From NCBI GenBank assembly GCA_019351955.1, contig JABBOE010000002.1, positions 1 through 64,000 on the forward strand: a stretch of DNA of 64,000 nt. Direction: 5' to 3'. The position numbers and the translations under genes were made by a program. The notes under the pieces were generated by a model. That model was given only the letters and a program-made list of their open reading frames with translations. It did not search any database and had not been told where the DNA came from. Source of the DNA: Pseudomonadota bacterium (GTDB taxonomy: Bacteria; Pseudomonadota; Gammaproteobacteria; Burkholderiales; Burkholderiaceae_C). This document shows, piece after piece, positions 20,662 through 49,464 of this stretch (its first letter is position 1; each line of letters opens with the position of its first letter).

Positions 20662-20815
20662 CGCGAAGGTTGTTTACCGGTGGGCCGCTCCCATGATGCG
20701 TGTCACCATGAACCAGCGATTGCGACGATGGTGCCGTGCCGCGCGCAGCCTGCAGGGCCTTGGCAAGGGTGCGGGCCCGGCGTGACCTGCGAGGTCAGTT
20801 CAAGGAGATCGTTCC

Positions 20816-23800
20816 ATGCTGCTCATGCGCAAATCACCGCCCGATGGTGCCCCAGTTGGATCTGCTGCAGACAATCCGTGGGTTGCCCAACTCAGGCAAG
20901 GTCTTGAGCATGCGCTGCCGACCGTGGACCGGCGGACGTTTCTGCGGCGCTCAGGCCTTGGCCTCGGGCTCGCCGCCGGCGCCGGGTTGATCGGTTCCCA
21001 ACTGCGTCTGGTGGAAAAGGCGGACGCCGCCGATGCGCCAGCCCCCGGATCTCCAGGAAGTGGGCGCATGGTGACGCGCCGGACCGTGTGCACGCACTGT
21101 TCGGTGGGCTGCGCAAGCGACGCGATGGTGGAGAACGGCGTGTGGGTGAGGCAAAACCCCGTCTTCGAATCACCCATCAACATGGGCGCGCATTGCGCCA
21201 AGGGCGCTGCACTGCGCGACCATGGCCGCGGTGACCACCGCTTGCGCTACCCGATGAAGCTCGTTGACGGCAAGTACCAGCGGATCTCCTGGGACAAGGC
21301 GCTGCAGGAAATCAGCGACAGGCTCCTGGAAATCCGCAAGGAAAGCGGCCCGGATGCGCTGTTCGTCGTCGGATCGTCCAAGCACAGCAACGAGCAGGCC
21401 TATCTGCTGCGCAAGTGGGTATCGTTTTGGGGCACCAACAACTGTGACCATCAGGCACGCATCTGCCATTCCACGACAGTAGCCGGAGTAGCCAACACGT
21501 GGGGCTACGGCGCGATGACCAACTCATACAACGACATGGCGAATTCGAAAGTGGCGCTGTACATCGGCTCGAATGCCGCTGAGGCCCACCCGGTATCCAT
21601 GCTGCACCTGCTTCACGCGAAGGAAAACGGCTGCAAGGTCATCGTGGTGGACCCGCGCTTCACGCGTACGGCGGCCAAGGCTGACAAGCACATTCGTATC
21701 CGCTCGGGGACCGACATTCCCTTCCTGTTTGGCGTGCTCTATCACATCTTCGATAACGGATGGGAGGACAAGGACTACATCGCCGCCCGCGTCTGGGGAA
21801 TGGACCAGGTCAAGCAGGACGTGATGGCAAAGTGGTCTCCCGACAAGGTGCAGGAGGTTTGTGGCGTGGACGGCAACACGACCCTGATGGTGGCGACGTG
21901 GCTGCACGAGAACCGCCCTGGTACCGTGGTGTGGTGCATGGGTCAGACGCAGCACACCATTGGCCACGCCATCGTGCGCGCATCGTGCATTCTCCAGTTG
22001 GCGCTTGGCAACGTTGGCAAATCCGGAGGTGGCACGAACATCTTCCGGGGTCACGACAATGTGCAGGGCGCGACCGATGTCGGTCCGAATCCCGACTCGC
22101 TTCCCGGCTACTACGGGGTGATCGATGGCGCGTGGAAGCATTTCGCCAGCGTGTGGGGTGTGGATTACGAATGGATCAAGGGGCGCTTTGCGCCGGGCAT
22201 GATGACGAAACCCGGCATGACGGTCTCACGCTGGATCGATGGCGTGCTGACCCCCAACGACATGATCGATCAGGGCCCGAATCTGCGCGCGCAGATTTTT
22301 TGGGGGCATGCCCCCAACTCGCAGACGCGTGGCCTGGATATGAAAAAGGCCATGGATAAACTGGATTTGCTCGTGGTGATCGACCCCTATCCGTCGGCCA
22401 CTGCAGCCATGGCGGCCATGCCAGGCGAGCCAAAGGACCTCAATCCCAAGCGCGCGGTCTATCTTCTGCCCGCGGCCACCCAGCTCGAGACATCGGGTTC
22501 AGTCACGGCCTCCAATCGCTCGCTGCAATGGCGTGAGCAAGTGGTCGAGCCCCTGTTTGAGTCGCGCACGGACCACATGATCATGGTGCAGCTGGCCGAC
22601 AAGCTCGGATTTGGCAAGGAATTGGTGAAGAACTACAAGATGGTGCCGGGAAAGGGTGGCATGCTGGAGCCCGAAACCGAATCAATCCTGCGGGAGATCA
22701 ATCGGGGCGTGTGGACCATTGGTTATACGGGTCAGAGCCCTGAGCGTCTAAAGGCGCATATGCGCAACATGCACGTGTTCGATGTCAAGACGCTGCGTGC
22801 GCGCGGCGGGATTGACGCTGAGACGGGATACAAGCTTGATGGCGAGTATTTCGGCCTGCCGTGGCCTTGCTACGGCACGCCGGAGTTGCGCCACCCAGGT
22901 ACTGGAAATCTGTACGACACCTCGCTCAACGTGATGCAGGGCGGGGGAAATTTCCGTGCCAATTTCGGCGTCGAGCGCGATGGACAGTCCCTGCTGGCGG
23001 CTGACGGATCGGCCTCTAAGGGCGCGGACATTCAAACCGGATATCCCGAGTTCGACGCCACCTTGCTGAAAAAGCTCGGTTGGTGGGACGAACTGACGGA
23101 TGCCGAGAAAAAGGCAGCAGATGGGAAGAACTGGAAAACCGACTCATCGGGCGGGATCATCCGCGTCGTCATGAAAAATCATGGCTGCTATCCATTCGGC
23201 AATGCCAGGGCTCGCGCGGTCGTGTGGAACTTCCCGGATCCCATCCCCCAGCACCGTGAGCCGCTGTATTCCGTGCGCCCAGACATGGTGGCGCAATATC
23301 CCACCTACGACGATAAGAAGGTGTTCTGGCGTTTGCCCACGCTGTTCAAGACAGTGCAGGAGCAGAACATCGACATTGTCAAGAAATTCCCCCTCATCCT
23401 CACCTCAGGACGGTTGGTCGAATACGAGGGTGGGGGCGATGAAACGCGGTCGAATCCCTGGCTCGCCGAGTTGCAGCAGTTTGCCTTCGTGCAGGTCAAT
23501 CCGGCCGTGGCCAACGACCGCAATATCCGGGAGGGCGATGACGTGTGGGTCAGCACGCCCACGGGAGCGCGCATCAAGGTGCGTGCGCGTATCACCGAAG
23601 CGGTGGATCGCAGCACAGTGTTCATTCCCTTTCACTTTGCCGGGCACTGGCAGGGAACGAACCTTCGCCAGTACTACCCCGAGGGCGCCGCGCCCATCGT
23701 GCTGGGCGAAGCGGTCAACACAGCCACGACCTATGGCTATGACGCGGTGACGATGATGCAGGAAAGCAAGACCACTGTGTGCCAACTCGAGCGCGCATAA
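20816..23800 (+). CDS. Formate dehydrogenase major (alpha) subunit, Tat-exported, Mo/W-bisMGD, Cys-containing
   Basis: TAT motif DRRTFLRRSGLG; [4Fe-4S] 'VCTHCSVGCASD...HCAKGAALRD'; active-site 'NNCDHQARICHSTTVAGVANTWG' with Cys in the Sec/Cys position. Confidence 0.94.
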   Translation: MLLMRKSPPDGAPVGSAADNPWVAQLRQGLEHALPTVDRRTFLRRSGLGLGLAAGAGLIGSQLRLVEKADAADAPAPGSPGSGRMVTRRTVCTHCSVGCASDAMVENGVWVRQNPVFESPINMGAHCAKGAALRDHGRGDHRLRYPMKLVDGKYQRISWDKALQEISDRLLEIRKESGPDALFVVGSSKHSNEQAYLLRKWVSFWGTNNCDHQARICHSTTVAGVANTWGYGAMTNSYNDMANSKVALYIGSNAAEAHPVSMLHLLHAKENGCKVIVVDPRFTRTAAKADKHIRIRSGTDIPFLFGVLYHIFDNGWEDKDYIAARVWGMDQVKQDVMAKWSPDKVQEVCGVDGNTTLMVATWLHENRPGTVVWCMGQTQHTIGHAIVRASCILQLALGNVGKSGGGTNIFRGHDNVQGATDVGPNPDSLPGYYGVIDGAWKHFASVWGVDYEWIKGRFAPGMMTKPGMTVSRWIDGVLTPNDMIDQGPNLRAQIFWGHAPNSQTRGLDMKKAMDKLDLLVVIDPYPSATAAMAAMPGEPKDLNPKRAVYLLPAATQLETSGSVTASNRSLQWREQVVEPLFESRTDHMIMVQLADKLGFGKELVKNYKMVPGKGGMLEPETESILREINRGVWTIGYTGQSPERLKAHMRNMHVFDVKTLRARGGIDAETGYKLDGEYFGLPWPCYGTPELRHPGTGNLYDTSLNVMQGGGNFRANFGVERDGQSLLAADGSASKGADIQTGYPEFDATLLKKLGWWDELTDAEKKAADGKNWKTDSSGGIIRVVMKNHGCYPFGNARARAVVWNFPDPIPQHREPLYSVRPDMVAQYPTYDDKKVFWRLPTLFKTVQEQNIDIVKKFPLILTSGRLVEYEGGGDETRSNPWLAELQQFAFVQVNPAVANDRNIREGDDVWVSTPTGARIKVRARITEAVDRSTVFIPFHFAGHWQGTNLRQYYPEGAAPIVLGEAVNTATTYGYDAVTMMQESKTTVCQLERA

Positions 23801-33101: not shown

Positions 33102-33989
33102 ATGCTTGCACGTAAATACCGCTACCTCCTGGCCTTGGCGCAAAGCCGTCACTTTGGACGCGCTGCCGCGAGTTGCCATGTCTCGCCGTCGACGCTTTCG
33201 GCGGCCGTTCGCGATCTGGAGAGCGAGTTGGGGGTAGCCATTGTTGAGCGTGGGCGCACGTTCTCGGGCTTCACGGCTGAAGGCCTGTCGGTGGTGGACT
33301 ATGCCCGTCGCATGAGCGCAGTGGAGGCGGATTTTCGGTTGCACCTGAGCAAGATGGGTGGCGGGCTGAGCGGGCGGCTTTCGCTTGGGGTGATTCCCAC
33401 CGCGCTGACCGTTGTTGCGGGGCTCTCGGTGGCCCTCGCGCGGCGGCATCCGCAGCTCCGCTTGGAGATCCTCTCGCTCAATACCGAGGAGATACTGCGT
33501 CGGGTACAGGCCTTTGAGCTGGACGGCGGGATTGTCTACAAGGAATCCAGCGACGTGGAGGGTCTGGATTTCATGCCCCTCTGGCAGGAGCGGCACGTGC
33601 TGATTGCAGGTCAGCGTATGGCAGCTTCGCTGCGCGAGACCATGAGCTGGAGCGAGGCTGGGCAGCTGCCGCTTTGTCTGCTGACGCCCGACATGCAAAA
33701 CCGCAAGACCATCGACCGTGTCTTCGACGGGCTGGGCGCGCGTCCGCAGCCCGGCCTGGAGACGAATTCCATCGTCAGCATGCTGGCGCACGTCGGAAGC
33801 GGGTCGTGGTGCGCCATCCTTCCGGGGAGTGTGCTGGACGTCGTGGGTACCCCCAAAGGTGTGAAAGTCGTGCGCCTGGTCGAGCCAACGGTGACGTGGG
33901 AGACCGGGTTGATCACCTTGGCGCGCGAACCTCGCCCAGTCGGCGTCGAGGCGCTGCTGTCCGCAGCCCGCAACGCTCGGGAACGCTGA
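33102..33989 (+). CDS. LysR family transcriptional regulator
   Basis: N-term HTH 'RKYRYLLALAQSRHFGRAAASCHVSPSTLSAAVRDLESELGVAIVERG'. Confidence 0.92.
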   Translation: MLARKYRYLLALAQSRHFGRAAASCHVSPSTLSAAVRDLESELGVAIVERGRTFSGFTAEGLSVVDYARRMSAVEADFRLHLSKMGGGLSGRLSLGVIPTALTVVAGLSVALARRHPQLRLEILSLNTEEILRRVQAFELDGGIVYKESSDVEGLDFMPLWQERHVLIAGQRMAASLRETMSWSEAGQLPLCLLTPDMQNRKTIDRVFDGLGARPQPGLETNSIVSMLAHVGSGSWCAILPGSVLDVVGTPKGVKVVRLVEPTVTWETGLITLAREPRPVGVEALLSAARNARER

Positions 33990-34169
33990 TGGCAATCAGA
34001 ACCGCCCACTTCCGAGGCGATCGCCCGCGCGCTTCCGAAGCGCACGTTTGCCATTTTTGGCCCATTGCGCGTCGTTTGTTCGGAAAAATCGCATAAGTCT
34101 TCGGAAAGAATCGTGACCGTAGCAGGGATCCCCATATGGATTGTCTTCATCAAATTCCGGTATAAAGAC

Positions 34170-34195
34170 CTAGACCCCCGATATCGGGGGTCTAG
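34170..34195. promoter_or_regulatory. Perfect 26-bp palindrome upstream of OFA transporter
   Basis: CTAGACCCCCGATATCGGGGGTCTAG, identical to its reverse complement; just downstream of a TATAAA-like -10. Confidence 0.75.
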
Positions 34196-34223
34196 AAAAC
34201 ACTCGGACCCATGAGGAGACACG

Positions 34224-35867
34224 ATGTCTGAATCCCTAGCAAGGCCTATGCCGGCGAGCGGGTTACTTGACCGCGAACGCACCGTTGCCGGTGCACGATT
34301 CAACCGTTGGCTGGTGCCGCCAGCGGCTCTTGCCATCCATTTGTGCATCGGCATGGCGTATGGCTTCTCCGTGTTTTGGCTTCCGATGACCAAACTGTTG
34401 TCAAACACGGACGAGGCGACGTGCAAGGCGCAAGGGCTGATGGCCGAGATGTTCAGTACGACTTGTAACTGGACCGTGCCTTCAGTGACGCACACGTTCG
34501 AGATGTTCATCGCCGTCCTCGGCATTGCTGCGGCGCTGTGGGGTGGCTGGCTGGAGCACGCCGGTCCCCGCAAGGCCGGTTTCATCGCCGCATTGTGTTG
34601 GGGCGGTGGCCTCGTCATTGGCGGCATTGGCGTGTCCACGCACCAGCTTTGGCTGCTGTGGCTGGGCTGCGGGATCATTGGCGGGGTTGGGCAGGGACTG
34701 GGCTACATCAGCCCGGTGTCGACGCTGATCAAGTGGTTCCCTGACCGTCGGGGCATGGCCACGGGCTTTGCCATCATGGGGTACGGAGGTGGTGCAATGA
34801 TCGGAGCGCCGATTGCTGTGGCGCTGATGAAACATTTCGGCGGCGGCGACAGCTCGCAGGGAGTGGCCATGACCCTGATCGTCATGGGCATTTTGTATTT
34901 CATCGTGATGTCGGCTGGTGCATTCGGCATTCGCATCCCGCCCAGCGGCTGGAAGCCAGCGGGCTGGGATGAGGCGTCAAGCGGCTCCAGAAAGGCGATG
35001 ATTACCCCCCATCACGTGCATTTGGATGTGGCCTGGAAGACACCCCAGTTCTGGTTGATCTGGGGTGTGCTGTGCCTGAACGTGACAGCCGGGATCGGGG
35101 TGATTTCCATGGCCAGTCCCATGTTGCAGGATGTGTTCGGTGGGCACCTGATCGGGCTGGATTCGCTCACGGCGCTGACCACGGCGCAAAAGGCGGCTGT
35201 TGCGGCGTCCGCGGCCGGCCTGGTGGGCTTGATCAGCCTGTTCAACAGTCTGGGACGGTTGTTTTGGGCCAGCATTTCCGACCATATCGGTCGCAAGATG
35301 ACGTACTCCGTGTTCTTTATCCTGGGCATGGCGCTATACATCAGCCTTCCCACGCTGGGCCATTTGGGCATGGCAGGTCTCTTCGTCATTGGCGTGTGCC
35401 TGATTTTGACGATGTACGGTGGAGGCTTCTCAACGGTGCCGGCTTATCTTGCTGACATTTTTGGCACCCAGATGGTCGGGGCGATTCACGGGCGGCTGCT
35501 GACGGCGTGGTCCGTGGCGGGCATCGCGGGACCCTTCCTGATTGCCGCCATCCGGCAGACGCAGATCAACGCCGGGGTGGCGCACAACCTCGTGTATGAC
35601 CGAACCCTGTATATCCTGGCGGGTTTGCTCCTCGCAGGGCTTGTCCTCAACCTCCTGGTGCGCCCGGTTGACGCCAAGCACAACATGACGGCCGAGCAAC
35701 TCGCGCGCGAAAGGGCACTTCAGCACGAGGATCGCACCGCGGGTGACCCCGCGCATGCAGCGCGCGGCCCGTTTGGGCTCTCCGGGGTTTTGGCCTGGGC
35801 CGCAATCGGCATCCCCTTCCTCATCGGTGTCTATATCGCGCTGCAGAAGGCCGCCGTCCTTTTTTGA
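34224..35867 (+). CDS. OFA (oxalate/formate antiporter) family MFS transporter
   Basis: 'IHLCIGMAYGFSVFWLPM', 'GGIGVSTHQLWLLWLGCGIIGGVGQGLGYISPVSTLIKWFPDRRGMATGFAIMGYGGGAMIGAP'. Confidence 0.92.
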   Translation: MSESLARPMPASGLLDRERTVAGARFNRWLVPPAALAIHLCIGMAYGFSVFWLPMTKLLSNTDEATCKAQGLMAEMFSTTCNWTVPSVTHTFEMFIAVLGIAAALWGGWLEHAGPRKAGFIAALCWGGGLVIGGIGVSTHQLWLLWLGCGIIGGVGQGLGYISPVSTLIKWFPDRRGMATGFAIMGYGGGAMIGAPIAVALMKHFGGGDSSQGVAMTLIVMGILYFIVMSAGAFGIRIPPSGWKPAGWDEASSGSRKAMITPHHVHLDVAWKTPQFWLIWGVLCLNVTAGIGVISMASPMLQDVFGGHLIGLDSLTALTTAQKAAVAASAAGLVGLISLFNSLGRLFWASISDHIGRKMTYSVFFILGMALYISLPTLGHLGMAGLFVIGVCLILTMYGGGFSTVPAYLADIFGTQMVGAIHGRLLTAWSVAGIAGPFLIAAIRQTQINAGVAHNLVYDRTLYILAGLLLAGLVLNLLVRPVDAKHNMTAEQLARERALQHEDRTAGDPAHAARGPFGLSGVLAWAAIGIPFLIGVYIALQKAAVLF

Positions 35868-35918
35868 AGTAAGGTCTGAGAGTCGGTCTCGCATTCCCGG
35901 CTCCTCGTTCCATGCACA

Positions 35919-35946
35919 ACGAGGCCGGCATCGACGCCGGCCTCGT
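35919..35946 (+). terminator. Strong stem-loop between OFA transporter and FDH beta gene
   Basis: ACGAGGCCGGC (35919-35929) / GCCGGCCTCGT (35936-35946), perfect 11-bp arms with 6-nt loop; no clear U-tract. Confidence 0.5.
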
Positions 35947-35965
35947 CACTTCACAAGACTCCCCC

Positions 35966-37819
35966 ATGCCCAGCCCAGCGCCCACAAACACTCCTCGAGC
36001 GGTCGAGCCCGAGCAAAGCGCCGCGCGCGCGCAGCCCGTGCGTTTCATGCGCGTGACTCCGCGCGGTGGTCTCGTCAGCCCCGAGGCTAGGCAAGCAGTC
36101 AAGGCGGCCAGCGGCGACTTGGCGTCGCGTCCTGACTTGCTGATCGAGCACCTGCACCGCCTAGTGGACGCCGAGGGTGGGTTGCGTCCGTCGCGTCTTG
36201 CAGCCTTGGCCGAGACGTTGCGCCTGTCCACCAGCGAGGTGTATGAGGTGGCAAGTTTCTACGACCACTTGCGCCTGTTGCGCGAGGATGAGCCCGCGCC
36301 GAGAGCGACCGTACGCGTGTGTACCAATCTGAGTTGCGCGCTCGCCGGCGCGGATGCCTTGCTCCACGCGCTGCAACACCGCTGCGGTGTCGATGTCGCA
36401 GTTGAAGGCGCGTCGTGCATGGGCCTGTGCACACAGGCGCCAGGTGTGCTTGTGGGGCGCCACGCGCTCGGCAACGCCACGCCCGAGGCGGTGATTGCCG
36501 CCCTGCCCGAGGCGTCTACTCCCGCCAGGCCGCCGGCAGCCGCCGTGTGCTACGCGGAGTATCGTGCCGGAGGCGGTTACCGCCTTCTCGAGGAGTGTCA
36601 TGCCGCAGTGCGCGCGCCGGAAGAAATCATGGCGCAACTCGAAGCCGCGGACTTGCGCGGGCTGGGCGGCGCCGGTTTTCCCTCCGTGCGCAAATGGCGC
36701 ACGCTCGCCCAGCAACCGAGCCCGCGTCTGATCGTGCTCAATGCAGACGAAGGCGAAGTCGGCACTTGCAAGGACGGCCACATTCTCCGCACAGACCCTC
36801 ACCGCGTGCTCGAAGGCATGCTCGTTGCAGCGTGGGCGGTGGCTGCCGGCAGGATTTGGATTTACCTGCGCGACGAATACGCTGCCGAGAACACTTTGCT
36901 GCACCGCGAACTGCAGGCCCTTCATGAAGCGGGTCTCGTGCGCTATGGCGGCGTGGACGTCGGTGGCCCTGAGGACGATGAACCGGGAGCGGACGCCGAG
37001 GTGCGTGCGCGACCGCCGCGTGTGGCCCTGCGCCGAGGTGCGGGCGCCTATATCTGCGGCGAGGAGTCCGCGTTGATTGAGTCCCTTGAAGGCAAACGTG
37101 GCATGCCACGCCTGAAGCCGCCCATCGTGGCCATCAGTGGGCTCTTTGGCAAGCCGACGTTGGAGCATAACGTGGAGACCCTCTGGTGGGTTCGCGATAT
37201 CGTGCAAGGTGGCGGTCAGGCGTGGGCCGCATTGGGCCGGCGCGGACGCAAAGGCGTGCGACGCTTCACCGTCTCCGGGCGCGTGACCAGACCTGGCGTC
37301 TACCTGGCGCCGGCCGGCATCACCGCGCGCGAACTGATCGAGGAGCATGCGGGGGGAATGGCTCCGGGCTGGTCGCTCTATGGCGTGTTGCCCGGTGGGG
37401 CGTCAGGGGGCATCCTCAACGCGAATCAGGCTGATCTGCCGCTGGACTTCGGCACCCTTGACGCCGAAGGTTGCTTCATCGGGTCGATGGCGGTCGTCGT
37501 TCTGGGCCAGCGGGAGGGCCATGTCGACATGGCGCGCGAGGCGGCTACCAACTTGATGCAGTTTTTTGCCCACGAGAGCTGTGGCCAGTGCACCCCGTGC
37601 CGCGAAGGCACCCACCAGATGCTTGCGGCGATGGCTTCACCAGCGTGGGATGCAACGCACATCGCTGGGTTGACCCGGATCATGCGCGATGCCTCGATAT
37701 GCGGACTCGGTCAAGCCGCGCCGAATCCAACCGACAGCGTATTGCGGCACTTTCCACAGGAGGTCGGTTTGCAAGGCACGCTTGCAGGAGGCGCGGACAA
37801 GAGCGAGCCGCGCGGATGA
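35966..37819 (+). CDS. NAD-dependent formate dehydrogenase beta subunit (NuoE-NuoF fusion)
   Basis: N-terminal NuoE-like [2Fe-2S] region 'CTNLSCALAG...GASCMGLCTQAPG'; NuoF region 'LRGLGGAGFPSVRKW', 'GAGAYICGEESALIESLEGKRGMPRLKPP', 'ESCGQCTPCREGTHQM'. Upstream start at 35912 is possible. Confidence 0.9.
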   Translation: MPSPAPTNTPRAVEPEQSAARAQPVRFMRVTPRGGLVSPEARQAVKAASGDLASRPDLLIEHLHRLVDAEGGLRPSRLAALAETLRLSTSEVYEVASFYDHLRLLREDEPAPRATVRVCTNLSCALAGADALLHALQHRCGVDVAVEGASCMGLCTQAPGVLVGRHALGNATPEAVIAALPEASTPARPPAAAVCYAEYRAGGGYRLLEECHAAVRAPEEIMAQLEAADLRGLGGAGFPSVRKWRTLAQQPSPRLIVLNADEGEVGTCKDGHILRTDPHRVLEGMLVAAWAVAAGRIWIYLRDEYAAENTLLHRELQALHEAGLVRYGGVDVGGPEDDEPGADAEVRARPPRVALRRGAGAYICGEESALIESLEGKRGMPRLKPPIVAISGLFGKPTLEHNVETLWWVRDIVQGGGQAWAALGRRGRKGVRRFTVSGRVTRPGVYLAPAGITARELIEEHAGGMAPGWSLYGVLPGGASGGILNANQADLPLDFGTLDAEGCFIGSMAVVVLGQREGHVDMAREAATNLMQFFAHESCGQCTPCREGTHQMLAAMASPAWDATHIAGLTRIMRDASICGLGQAAPNPTDSVLRHFPQEVGLQGTLAGGADKSEPRG

Positions 37820-37932: not shown

Positions 37933-40764
37933 ATGGACATGACACCTCCCGCTGTCGCCTTCACACTGGACGGCAAGACCCTGCTCGCACACGCCGGGGA
38001 GACCATCTGGGCAGCAGCCCAGCGTCACGGGGTCGAGATTCCCCACCTGTGTCACCACGACCCTTTGCGTCCGGTTGGCAACTGCCGCGCCTGCATGGTG
38101 GAGGTCAATGGCGAGCGCGTGCTCGCGGCCTCGTGCTGCCGCAGCGTTGAGCCGAATATGCAGGTGAGCGCGCGCAGTGAGCGGGCACTGGCTGCCCAGC
38201 GCGGCGTGCTGGAGTTGCTCGCTGCCCGCCAGCCCAAGCGGGTCGACCGCATTGATAATGAACTGGACCATTGGTGCCAGCGCCTGGGCGCCGACCGCAG
38301 CCGCTTTGCTTCAGCTTTTACCGGCGCCCACGCCGAGGCCGCCCATTGGCCCGTGTCCCCGCGTGCAGACGATTCCCACCCGGCCATCAGTGTCAACCTT
38401 GATGCATGTATCCAGTGCACGCGCTGTCTTCGCGCGTGTCGTGAGGAGCAGGGCAACGACGTCATCGGTTTGGCCGGCAGGGGAGCCTCGGCGCAAATCG
38501 TGTTCGACCAGGCCGCGGCGATGGGTGAAAGTACCTGCGTGGCATGCGGCGAGTGCGTGCAGGCTTGTCCCACTGGCGCACTCGCGCCAGCCAACGGATC
38601 CTGGGCCAGCCTCAGTACGCGGCAGGTGGATTCGGTCTGCCCGTATTGCGGCGTGGGGTGTGCGCTCACTTACCATATGCAGCCTGACGCCCAAGGCCAT
38701 GAACACATCGCTCGAGTCGATGGGCGCGATGGGCTCGCTAACCAAGGGCGCCTGTGCGTCAAAGGACGCTTTGGCTTCGACTATGTGGCCAATCCAGCCC
38801 GTCTGACCACCCCACTCATCCGCCGCGAGGGCGTGCCCAAGGACCCGGAACAGGTGAGGCTGGCCGACTGGCGTGCCGTGTTCCGCGAGGCCACTTGGGA
38901 CGAGGCGCTGGAGCACGCCGCCGGCGGGTTATTGCGGTTGCGTGCGCAACACGGGGGCAAGGCCTTGGCCGGGTTCGGGAGTGCCAAGGGCAGTAACGAG
39001 GAGGCGTATCTTTTTCAGAAATTGGTCCGCGCTGGCTTCGGCACCCACAATGTGGACCACTGCACCCGGTTGTGCCATGCATCCAGCGTCGCTGCCCTGC
39101 TTGAAGGCATTGGCTCGGGCGCGGTGAGCAACCCGGTCATGGACGTGCTGCACGCCGACGTGGTCCTGCTCATTGGCGCCAATCCAACCGTCAACCACCC
39201 GGTGGCCGCCACGTGGATGAAAAATGCCATGGCTCGCGGAACGCGCTTCATCCTGGCCGATCCACGACGCACCGAATTGGCCCGCAAGGCGTGGATGACC
39301 CTGCAGTTCCGCGCCGATACGGACCTGGCCCTGCTCAACGCCATGCTGCACGTGGTGTTCGCGGAAGATCTGGTCGATACCGCCAGCGTGCAGGAACGTT
39401 GTCATGCCGAGGATGTTGAGGCCATCCGTAGGCACGTGGCTCCGCTCAGCCCCGAGGCCATGGAGCCCATATGCGGCGTCGCCGCAGCGGACATTCGTGC
39501 CGCTGCTCGGGCATTTGCCACCAGCAAAGGATCGATGATTCTCTGGGGCATGGGCATATCCCAGCATGTGCACGGCACGGACAATGTGCGCGCACTCATT
39601 GCGCTATGCCAACTGACGGGGCAGATTGGTCGTCCCGGCACGGGGTTGCACCCGCTGCGTGGACAAAACAATGTTCAGGGCGCCAGCGATGCCGGGCTGA
39701 TTCCCATGATGTTTCCAGACTACGTGCGTACCCAGGACGCGGGAGTGCTGGATCGCGTGGAGCACTACTGGGCATTGCCGCAGGGGAGCCTAAGCCGCGA
39801 GCCGGGCCTGACCGTGGTCGAGATTGTCCACGCAGCGCTGGCCGGCACCATCCGCGGCATGTACATCGAGGGCGAAAACCCAGCGATGAGTGACCCTGAT
39901 GTGCACCACGCCCGCCAAGCGCTAAGCGGCCTGGAGCATCTGGTGGTGCAGGATATCTTTCTCACGGAGACGGCAGCGTTGGCCGATGTGGTGCTGCCCG
40001 CATCGGCATGGCCCGAGAAAACCGGCACGGTGACGAACACGGACCGCTTGGTCCAGCTTGGCCGCAAGGCGCTGGCCCTTCCGGGGCAGGCGCGTGCGGA
40101 CCTCTGGATCATCCAGGAAATGGGCCGGCGCCTCGGCGTGACGCCCATCGCGGAGGTCGATATGCTCGGTGGTGATGCGGGTGTGGGCGCCGTGTTCGAG
40201 GAAATGCGTGGCATGATGTCCTCCATCGCCGGCATCTCGTGGGCGCGCCTTCAGCGCGAAGGCGCCGTGACCTATCCTTGCCCGGCAGAAGATGAGCCGG
40301 GGCAGCGTGTGGTGTTTATTGACCGCTTTCCGACCTCCGACGGCCGTGCCAAGTTGCTGCCCGCGCCGCTTGCGTTTGCGGACGAGCGGCCCGATAACGC
40401 CTACCCGTACGTGTTGATTACCGGGCGCGAGTTGGAGCACTGGCACACGGGGGCGATGACCCGCCACGCCAGTGTCCTCGACGCACTGCAACCGGCGCCA
40501 ACCGTCAGCGTACATCCCATCCTGCTCACCAAGTTGGGGTTGAAGCCAGGAGATGCGCTGCATGTTCAGTCACGCCGTGGCGCCATCGAACTGGCCACCC
40601 GCGCGGACGATGCGATGCCGCTAGACGCCGTGTTCATCCCTTTCGCCTATGCTGAGGCCGCTGCAAATCTGCTCACCAACGCAGCTCTGGATCCATGGGG
40701 CAAGATTGCCGAGGTGAAGTACTGTGCGGTGCGCTTGGGCAAGGCGGCAGCGCCAACCCAGTGA
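37933..40764 (+). CDS. NAD-dependent formate dehydrogenase alpha subunit (NuoG-like N-term plus Mo/W-bisMGD)
   Basis: N-term [2Fe-2S] 'CHHDPLRPVGNCRACMVEV'; ferredoxin motifs; 'CPYCGVGCALTYH'; active site 'NVDHCTRLCHASSVAALL'. Confidence 0.93.
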   Translation: MDMTPPAVAFTLDGKTLLAHAGETIWAAAQRHGVEIPHLCHHDPLRPVGNCRACMVEVNGERVLAASCCRSVEPNMQVSARSERALAAQRGVLELLAARQPKRVDRIDNELDHWCQRLGADRSRFASAFTGAHAEAAHWPVSPRADDSHPAISVNLDACIQCTRCLRACREEQGNDVIGLAGRGASAQIVFDQAAAMGESTCVACGECVQACPTGALAPANGSWASLSTRQVDSVCPYCGVGCALTYHMQPDAQGHEHIARVDGRDGLANQGRLCVKGRFGFDYVANPARLTTPLIRREGVPKDPEQVRLADWRAVFREATWDEALEHAAGGLLRLRAQHGGKALAGFGSAKGSNEEAYLFQKLVRAGFGTHNVDHCTRLCHASSVAALLEGIGSGAVSNPVMDVLHADVVLLIGANPTVNHPVAATWMKNAMARGTRFILADPRRTELARKAWMTLQFRADTDLALLNAMLHVVFAEDLVDTASVQERCHAEDVEAIRRHVAPLSPEAMEPICGVAAADIRAAARAFATSKGSMILWGMGISQHVHGTDNVRALIALCQLTGQIGRPGTGLHPLRGQNNVQGASDAGLIPMMFPDYVRTQDAGVLDRVEHYWALPQGSLSREPGLTVVEIVHAALAGTIRGMYIEGENPAMSDPDVHHARQALSGLEHLVVQDIFLTETAALADVVLPASAWPEKTGTVTNTDRLVQLGRKALALPGQARADLWIIQEMGRRLGVTPIAEVDMLGGDAGVGAVFEEMRGMMSSIAGISWARLQREGAVTYPCPAEDEPGQRVVFIDRFPTSDGRAKLLPAPLAFADERPDNAYPYVLITGRELEHWHTGAMTRHASVLDALQPAPTVSVHPILLTKLGLKPGDALHVQSRRGAIELATRADDAMPLDAVFIPFAYAEAAANLLTNAALDPWGKIAEVKYCAVRLGKAAAPTQ

Positions 40765-49418: not shown

Positions 49419-49464
49419 CGGCACCAGCTGCCGGGCGTGCCATTGCGCCCGGCAGCTGGTGCCG
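49419..49464. repeat. Perfect 19-bp-arm inverted repeat upstream of bioA
   Basis: CGGCACCAGCTGCCGGGCG (49419-49437) / 8-nt loop TGCCATTG / CGCCCGGCAGCTGGTGCCG (49446-49464). Confidence 0.9.

Follow-up and report, generated by a model that had tools for sequence, protein, structure and literature searches.

A perfect palindrome beside a formate-gene promoter appears to be one species' version of a leader hairpin kept in shape across Thiomonas

What is the role of a perfect 26-bp palindrome that overlaps the start region of a transporter promoter? The question is raised by CTAGACCCCCGATATCGGGGGTCTAG (34170-34195), located in a window, i.e., the whole analyzed stretch of DNA, of 64,000 nucleotides (contig JABBOE010000002.1 of assembly GCA_019351955.1). 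The original prediction, made from the letters alone, described this element as equal to its own reverse complement, placed right after a TATAAA-like -10 element and 28 bp before an ATG, and very unlikely to have arisen by chance; two roles were suggested for it, that of an operator bound by a dimeric repressor and that of an RNA stem within the 5' UTR. This description proved accurate: by direct check, the 26 bp are exactly self-reverse-complementary, and they lie 3 nt downstream of TATAAA (34161-34166) and 28 nt upstream of the ATG at 34224. The improbability of the 26-mer is likewise borne out, as no other perfect palindrome of the window is as long (runner-up: 20 bp), those in 20 shuffled windows do not exceed 18 bp, and about 0.002 perfect 26-mer palindromes are expected per window by a rough estimate. 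The element stands out less when regarded as a hairpin with a stem of 11 bp and a loop of 4 nt: the best fold over 40 nt ranks about 55th among 12,793 windows. The search for further genomic copies that had been suggested returned a single copy in the 3.87-Mb assembly with up to three mismatches allowed; 27 other Thiomonas genomes contain no copy at the same tolerance, and no exact copy was found in the GTDB contigs searched. Elsewhere in the window, a perfect 19-bp inverted repeat with an 8-nt loop (49419-49464) forms the most stable 40-nt fold and overlaps long open frames on both strands, and two perfect 18-bp palindromes (AATCTGCGCGCGCAGATT, TTGGGGGCATGCCCCCAA; 22280-22317) lie 2 bp apart within a long + strand open frame (20786-23797).

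The palindrome is situated between a gene for a LysR-family regulator and genes for a transporter and an NAD-dependent formate dehydrogenase (Table 1), of which the gamma-type and beta-type (NuoF-like) parts are fused into one 635-aa protein (35912-37819). The transporter had been called an OFA transporter: membership of the MFS at family level holds, whereas none of the closest subfamily models (lactate SfMCT, oxalate/formate) reaches its curated cut-off. "OFA" thus serves as a label for the family, with a substrate presumed from genomic context. A LysR homologue is encoded upstream of the transporter in several, not all, Thiomonas loci, and, judging from the sequences, the LysR protein would more likely act at the CAGGGATCCCCATATGGA box than at the palindrome. 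Between 34079 and 34113, i.e., about 67-88 bp before the predicted transcription start, the window also carries two TTCGGAAA-type repeats (TTCGGAAAAATCG, TTCGGAAAGAATCG), which are conserved within the window's clade, with TTCGGAATTTTTCGC-like words in other clades; these repeats are possible candidates for LysR recognition sites.

Table 1. Features of the transporter promoter and its neighboring genes in the window
Feature	Position	Strand	Remarks
LysR-family regulator	33102..33989	+	probable regulator of the transporter promoter
CAGGGATCCCCATATGGA box, centre about -41	34123..34140	+	sequence-conserved; candidate activator (LysR) site; common to gene X promoters
-10 box TATAAA	34161..34166	+	kept in both Thiomonas and its sister genus
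Perfect palindrome / hairpin	34170..34195	+	arms 34170-34179 and 34186-34195 flanking GATATC 34180-34185
Predicted transcription start	34173	+	7th base past the -10 hexamer, ± 2, by spacing rule; within the left arm
Loop GATATC	34180..34185	+	counterpart of the relatives' 7-nt loop C-N-R-U-G-Y-A/C, one base shorter
Shine-Dalgarno GAGGAG	34213..34218	+	not part of the hairpin
MFS transporter, oxalate/formate/lactate group	34224..35867	+	from family models
Fused gamma/beta-type NAD-dependent formate dehydrogenase subunit (thioredoxin-like 2Fe-2S + NuoF-like)	35912..37819	+	
Formate dehydrogenase alpha-like molybdopterin subunit	37933..40764	+	

The transporter is present in 26 of 28 Thiomonas genomes, and its leaders allow a comparison across the genus; many of the compared loci come from metagenome-assembled genomes, and the genus was recognized as Thiomonas from the leader L003 (genome G033), which is the same as L077 of T. 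delicata DSM 16361. In 20 Thiomonas leaders, the window's included, a stem of 8-10 bp with a loop of 6-7 nt follows shortly after TATAA. The stems themselves vary widely, from CTAGACCCCC/GGGGGTCTAG in the window to CTTGGCCCCC/GGGGGCCAAG in L033, GCCATGGC/GCCGTGGC in L041, GATCTCGGC/GCCGGGATC in L044 and CCGCTAC/GTAGCGG in L051, and the half-sites of the palindrome differ even where the flanking genes of two species share 92-95% DNA identity. With the register set on the loop by script, a choice that favors structure, 131 of 144 cells in the inner 8 pairs of the 20 leaders hold standard pairs (91%), compared to 31-49% for slid partners, and both-side changes number 39, compared to 10.5 after shuffling (maximum of 20 among 2000 shuffles). 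This register was scripted because MAFFT, when mixing the window's clade with others (also in a test with L033), shifts its hairpin by several columns; for the same reason, the formal counts exclude that clade. Folded as single sequences, the leaders of the window, L033 and L032 reach z values of -6.4, -4.0 and -3.0, respectively, with upstream controls at -0.8 to -0.1, and several other leaders fold weakly alone (z -0.5 to -2). Conservation in orthologous promoters, on which the original prediction had been made to depend, is thus absent at the level of sequence and present at the level of structure, in 20 covarying leaders. From this comparison, it is quite probable that the shape of the hairpin, and not its sequence, is kept across Thiomonas, and the palindrome appears to be the window species' version of this leader hairpin.

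An independent test that avoids the loop-based register is provided by alignment A2, which holds 16 distinct leaders from outside the window's clade (MAFFT, gap-free). Given no structure, RNAalifold predicts from A2 a stem of 9 bp that closes a 7-nt loop (-14.55 kcal/mol), with both-side changes at 8 of the 9 pairs; column shuffles of A2 fold at -0.12 ± 0.41, and upstream of the -10 box the program returned 0, i.e., no fold, for all windows of 39 nt. Within the inner 8 pairs, 88.3% of the cells are paired compared to 71.3% after shuffling, and the covariation score amounts to 0.552 compared to 0.222; none of 500 shuffles reaches the pairing or covariation values of A2, and slid versions of the alignment attain at most 54% paired cells and a covariation of at most 0.18. 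Despite the relatedness of the leaders, which inflates such counts, the effect size and the slid controls make a chance origin of the covariation very unlikely. The comparison of strands gave 8 G-U cells and 6 A-C cells, numbers from which the selected strand is not distinguishable.

The loop adds a further conserved component. Its consensus is C-N-R-U-G-Y-A/C, and positions 1, 3, 4 and 5 have entropies of 0-0.85 bit, compared to 1.0-1.9 for most stem positions. With respect to the 7-nt-loop set, the window's own copy matches in position and stem and partially in loop (GATATC, one base short), and a covariance model built from A2, i.e., from the other clades (R1), gave no score for the window's own hairpin. 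Its assignment is therefore based on where it lies, on its architecture and on the sisters L033 and L032, which bridge it to the set with loops reading CGATATC and (C)CATGTC, respectively. The window's 26-mer is a perfect even palindrome because it has one C fewer than L033, and a 7-nt loop of the CGATATC type would have lost this base. Moreover, pairs 8-10 are perfect in both the window and L033, despite a position upstream of the predicted +1, which fits either template-switch homogenization acting on a selected hairpin or a slightly more upstream start. Template-switch mutation may account for part of the window copy's perfection, perhaps by correcting the arms.

Is the hairpin confined to the transporter? 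When run across the genus, R1 found a transporter leader outside its training set (L145, a perfect GCCGCGGC/GCCGCGGC stem with the loop CCATGCA, 42 bits), as well as hairpins before a second gene, gene X, at three loci (G168:C46, G160:C167, G158:C74). Gene X encodes a 199-aa membrane protein, which is unrelated to the transporter, occurs in a subset of Thiomonas and has no match in Pfam or NCBIfam; its loci include L173/L175 (G168:C46:31124-31720) and L163/L179 (G158:C74), and it is sometimes placed between LysR and transporter. Before gene X, the same upstream box, TATAAA and hairpin (e.g., GGCGGAAAC-CCATGCA-GTTCCCGCC) recur as a module, and the spacing and much of the sequence of the CAGGGATCCCCATATGGA box are kept in both gene types; the module is absent from two copies of gene X in G167 and from one in G171. 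The gene X leader is about 150 nt long and places the hairpin about 100 nt from the start codon, so that occlusion of the ribosome site by masking of the Shine-Dalgarno sequence is unlikely there.

A second model (R2), which combines box, -10 element and hairpin and was built without the window's clade, recovers these module sites mostly at E values of 1e-13 to 1e-22, the sites having belonged to its training set. In the window's genome, its sole match at E<=0.1 is the transporter promoter (34115-34192, E=0.02), a match driven mainly by the promoter half. Hairpins with the loops CGATGCA/CCATGCA are also present upstream of the LysR gene in L039 (about 90-125) and L045 (124-166); their stems are unlike those of the transporter leaders and not clearly at a -10 box, and they are noted as a lead. 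Outside the transporter, LysR and gene X loci, R1 matches of about 22-32 bits were discarded: where inspected (e.g., L159, L164, L165, L174), they had no such promoter and are regarded as chance or coding-like.

When mapped on a maximum-likelihood transporter tree, the hairpin occurs on either side of the deepest Thiomonas fork, which separates L003 and L051-L054 from the window's clade and a large clade. Five Thiomonas lineages (L034-L038) are without the 7-nt form, and other forms occur there and in the sister genus, in which TATAA is followed by weak hairpins with z mostly about -1 (L057, L059-L064, L004). Inspection of distant transporter genes (Dyella, Halomonas, other Burkholderiales) revealed no obvious common hairpin. 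Shared ancestry followed by sequence turnover would be the simplest reading of this distribution, in which the tree leaves losses unproven.

The position of the stem relative to the transcript provides a clue to its putative function. With +1 predicted from the -10 box alone (7 bases past the hexamer, about 34173 in the window), the stem begins within or 0-4 nt past this start in 16 of the 20 leaders and at 7 nt in three, L045 being unscored. An RNA starting at the predicted +1 of the window retains about 7 pairs (GACCCCC/GGGGGTC) and still has a stable fold. Transcription would thus begin in or just before the left arm, giving an mRNA that opens with a stable stem. The reading favored here, with moderate confidence, is that the transporter/formate-dehydrogenase mRNA carries an RNA hairpin at its 5' end or at most a few nucleotides from it, which pairs up this end and thereby most likely slows 5'-end-dependent decay; the specific mRNA-stabilizing mechanism is proposed more tentatively. 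The loop possibly adds recognition by a protein or small RNA, and induction is probably governed by LysR acting at the upstream box. Counting against this reading are the lineages L034-L038 without the 7-nt form, the weak hairpins of the sister genus, the leaders that fold weakly alone and the lack of an R1 score for the window's hairpin. Of the two roles originally suggested, the RNA stem in the 5' UTR is therefore the one supported, by a hairpin that is held by covariation in 20 Thiomonas promoters with unrelated stem sequences.

A different emphasis would be placed on the loop: a trans-acting factor, either an RNA-binding protein or a small RNA, might read C-N-R-U-G-Y-A on any stem, turning the hairpin into a post-transcriptional switch of a formate regulon and not a generic stabilizer. 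The higher conservation of loop positions 1, 3, 4 and 5 relative to the stem points in this direction, as does the recurrence of CCATGCA, CCACGCA and CGATGCA on unrelated stems before gene X and perhaps LysR. However, the window's clade has a deviating loop (GATATC/CGATATC), the likeness of the loops may partly reflect shared descent, the promoter of gene X may have arisen as a duplicate of that of the transporter, and the factor itself is hypothetical, with no known candidate. Such a loop-reading switch is considered possible but rather improbable, and the extended proposal of an RNA-level formate regulon in Thiomonas, in which a dedicated factor recognizes this loop at the mRNA 5' ends of transporter and gene X (perhaps also LysR), is a little more doubtful still. 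The hairpin might also be a functionless product of mutation, in which template switching keeps homogenizing an inverted repeat. Template switching is documented to yield perfect stems and multi-base compensatory changes (PMC8794818), and the perfect pairs 8-10 of the window and L033, upstream of the predicted +1, would be explained; yet the genus-wide fixed position after the -10 box, the conserved loop, the recurrence before a second gene and a helix that stops at 8-9 pairs in most clades make such an origin improbable as the whole explanation.

A DNA-binding dimer would need conserved half-sites. The palindrome keeps no sequence, its arms differing between close relatives and changing together, so the operator for a dimeric repressor that the original prediction had put forward is disfavored, despite a perfect dyad that overlaps the promoter start region: neither its own genome nor the congeners contain a further copy at up to three mismatches, and the sequence-conserved candidate site is a different one, the CAGGGATCCCCATATGGA box upstream at 34123-34140. 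An operator at the palindrome is accordingly judged very improbable. Least credible of all is a role as terminator or attenuator, or as a stem that masks the ribosome site. A terminator-like match does exist on the minus strand (TCTAGACCCCC..GGGGGTCTAGG TCTTTATACC), but its T-run is the -10 box, whose adjacency to the stem is lost in relatives, and no convincing minus-strand gene ends there; an intrinsic terminator was rejected since the + strand has no T-run after the hairpin and the minus-strand match is not conserved. Masking is countered by a Shine-Dalgarno sequence outside the hairpin and by the distance to the start codon before gene X. A search of the window for Rfam families and riboswitches gave none above the gathering score.

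If the favored reading of a 5'-terminal RNA hairpin is correct, a perfect palindrome leads to a testable, genus-wide leader RNA element tied to formate uptake and oxidation in sulfur-oxidizing bacteria. The locus is also a clean case in which a sequence search reads "not conserved" while structure is conserved, and one in which selection and template-switch mutation are separable by experiment. A loop-recognizing factor, if real, would define a new class of loop-coded leader element.

Several known systems offer comparisons. The ompA and papA mRNAs of E. coli carry 5'-terminal stem-loops that stabilize the message (Emory, Bouvet and Belasco 1992; Bricker and Belasco 1999, via PMC3997798). In these messages structure counts over sequence, and the stem is located at the 5' terminus or directly beside it, as is predicted here; pairing kept independently of sequence is found in the Thiomonas leaders as well. 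The Thiomonas element differs in that its 7-nt loop is better conserved and that it is coupled in a fixed manner to a single promoter type, and the evidence for it is comparative. A stem-loop in the 5' UTR of H. pylori vacA stabilizes its mRNA, the level of which drops 2-6-fold upon disruption (PMC4843948); it resembles the Thiomonas hairpin in lying in the leader near the promoter and outside the ribosome site, but gene and sequence are unrelated, and the Thiomonas evidence is comparative only. In Cupriavidus necator, a formate-inducible promoter and NAD-dependent formate dehydrogenase genes are under LysR-type control by FdsR (PMC7057948, in its available part). LysR-type control of such dehydrogenase genes in a beta-proteobacterium is the presumed common feature, the likeness being drawn at the level of the LysR family; unlike in Thiomonas, a leader hairpin is not described for the FdsR promoter in that part of the source. 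Finally, compensatory changes can also arise by template switching, with no need for selection (PMC8794818), and the RNA hairpins made in this way share with those of Thiomonas arms that changed together, multi-base compensatory changes and perfect stems. In contrast to the function-based systems, template switching is a mutational route, and it could coexist with selection in the Thiomonas hairpin.
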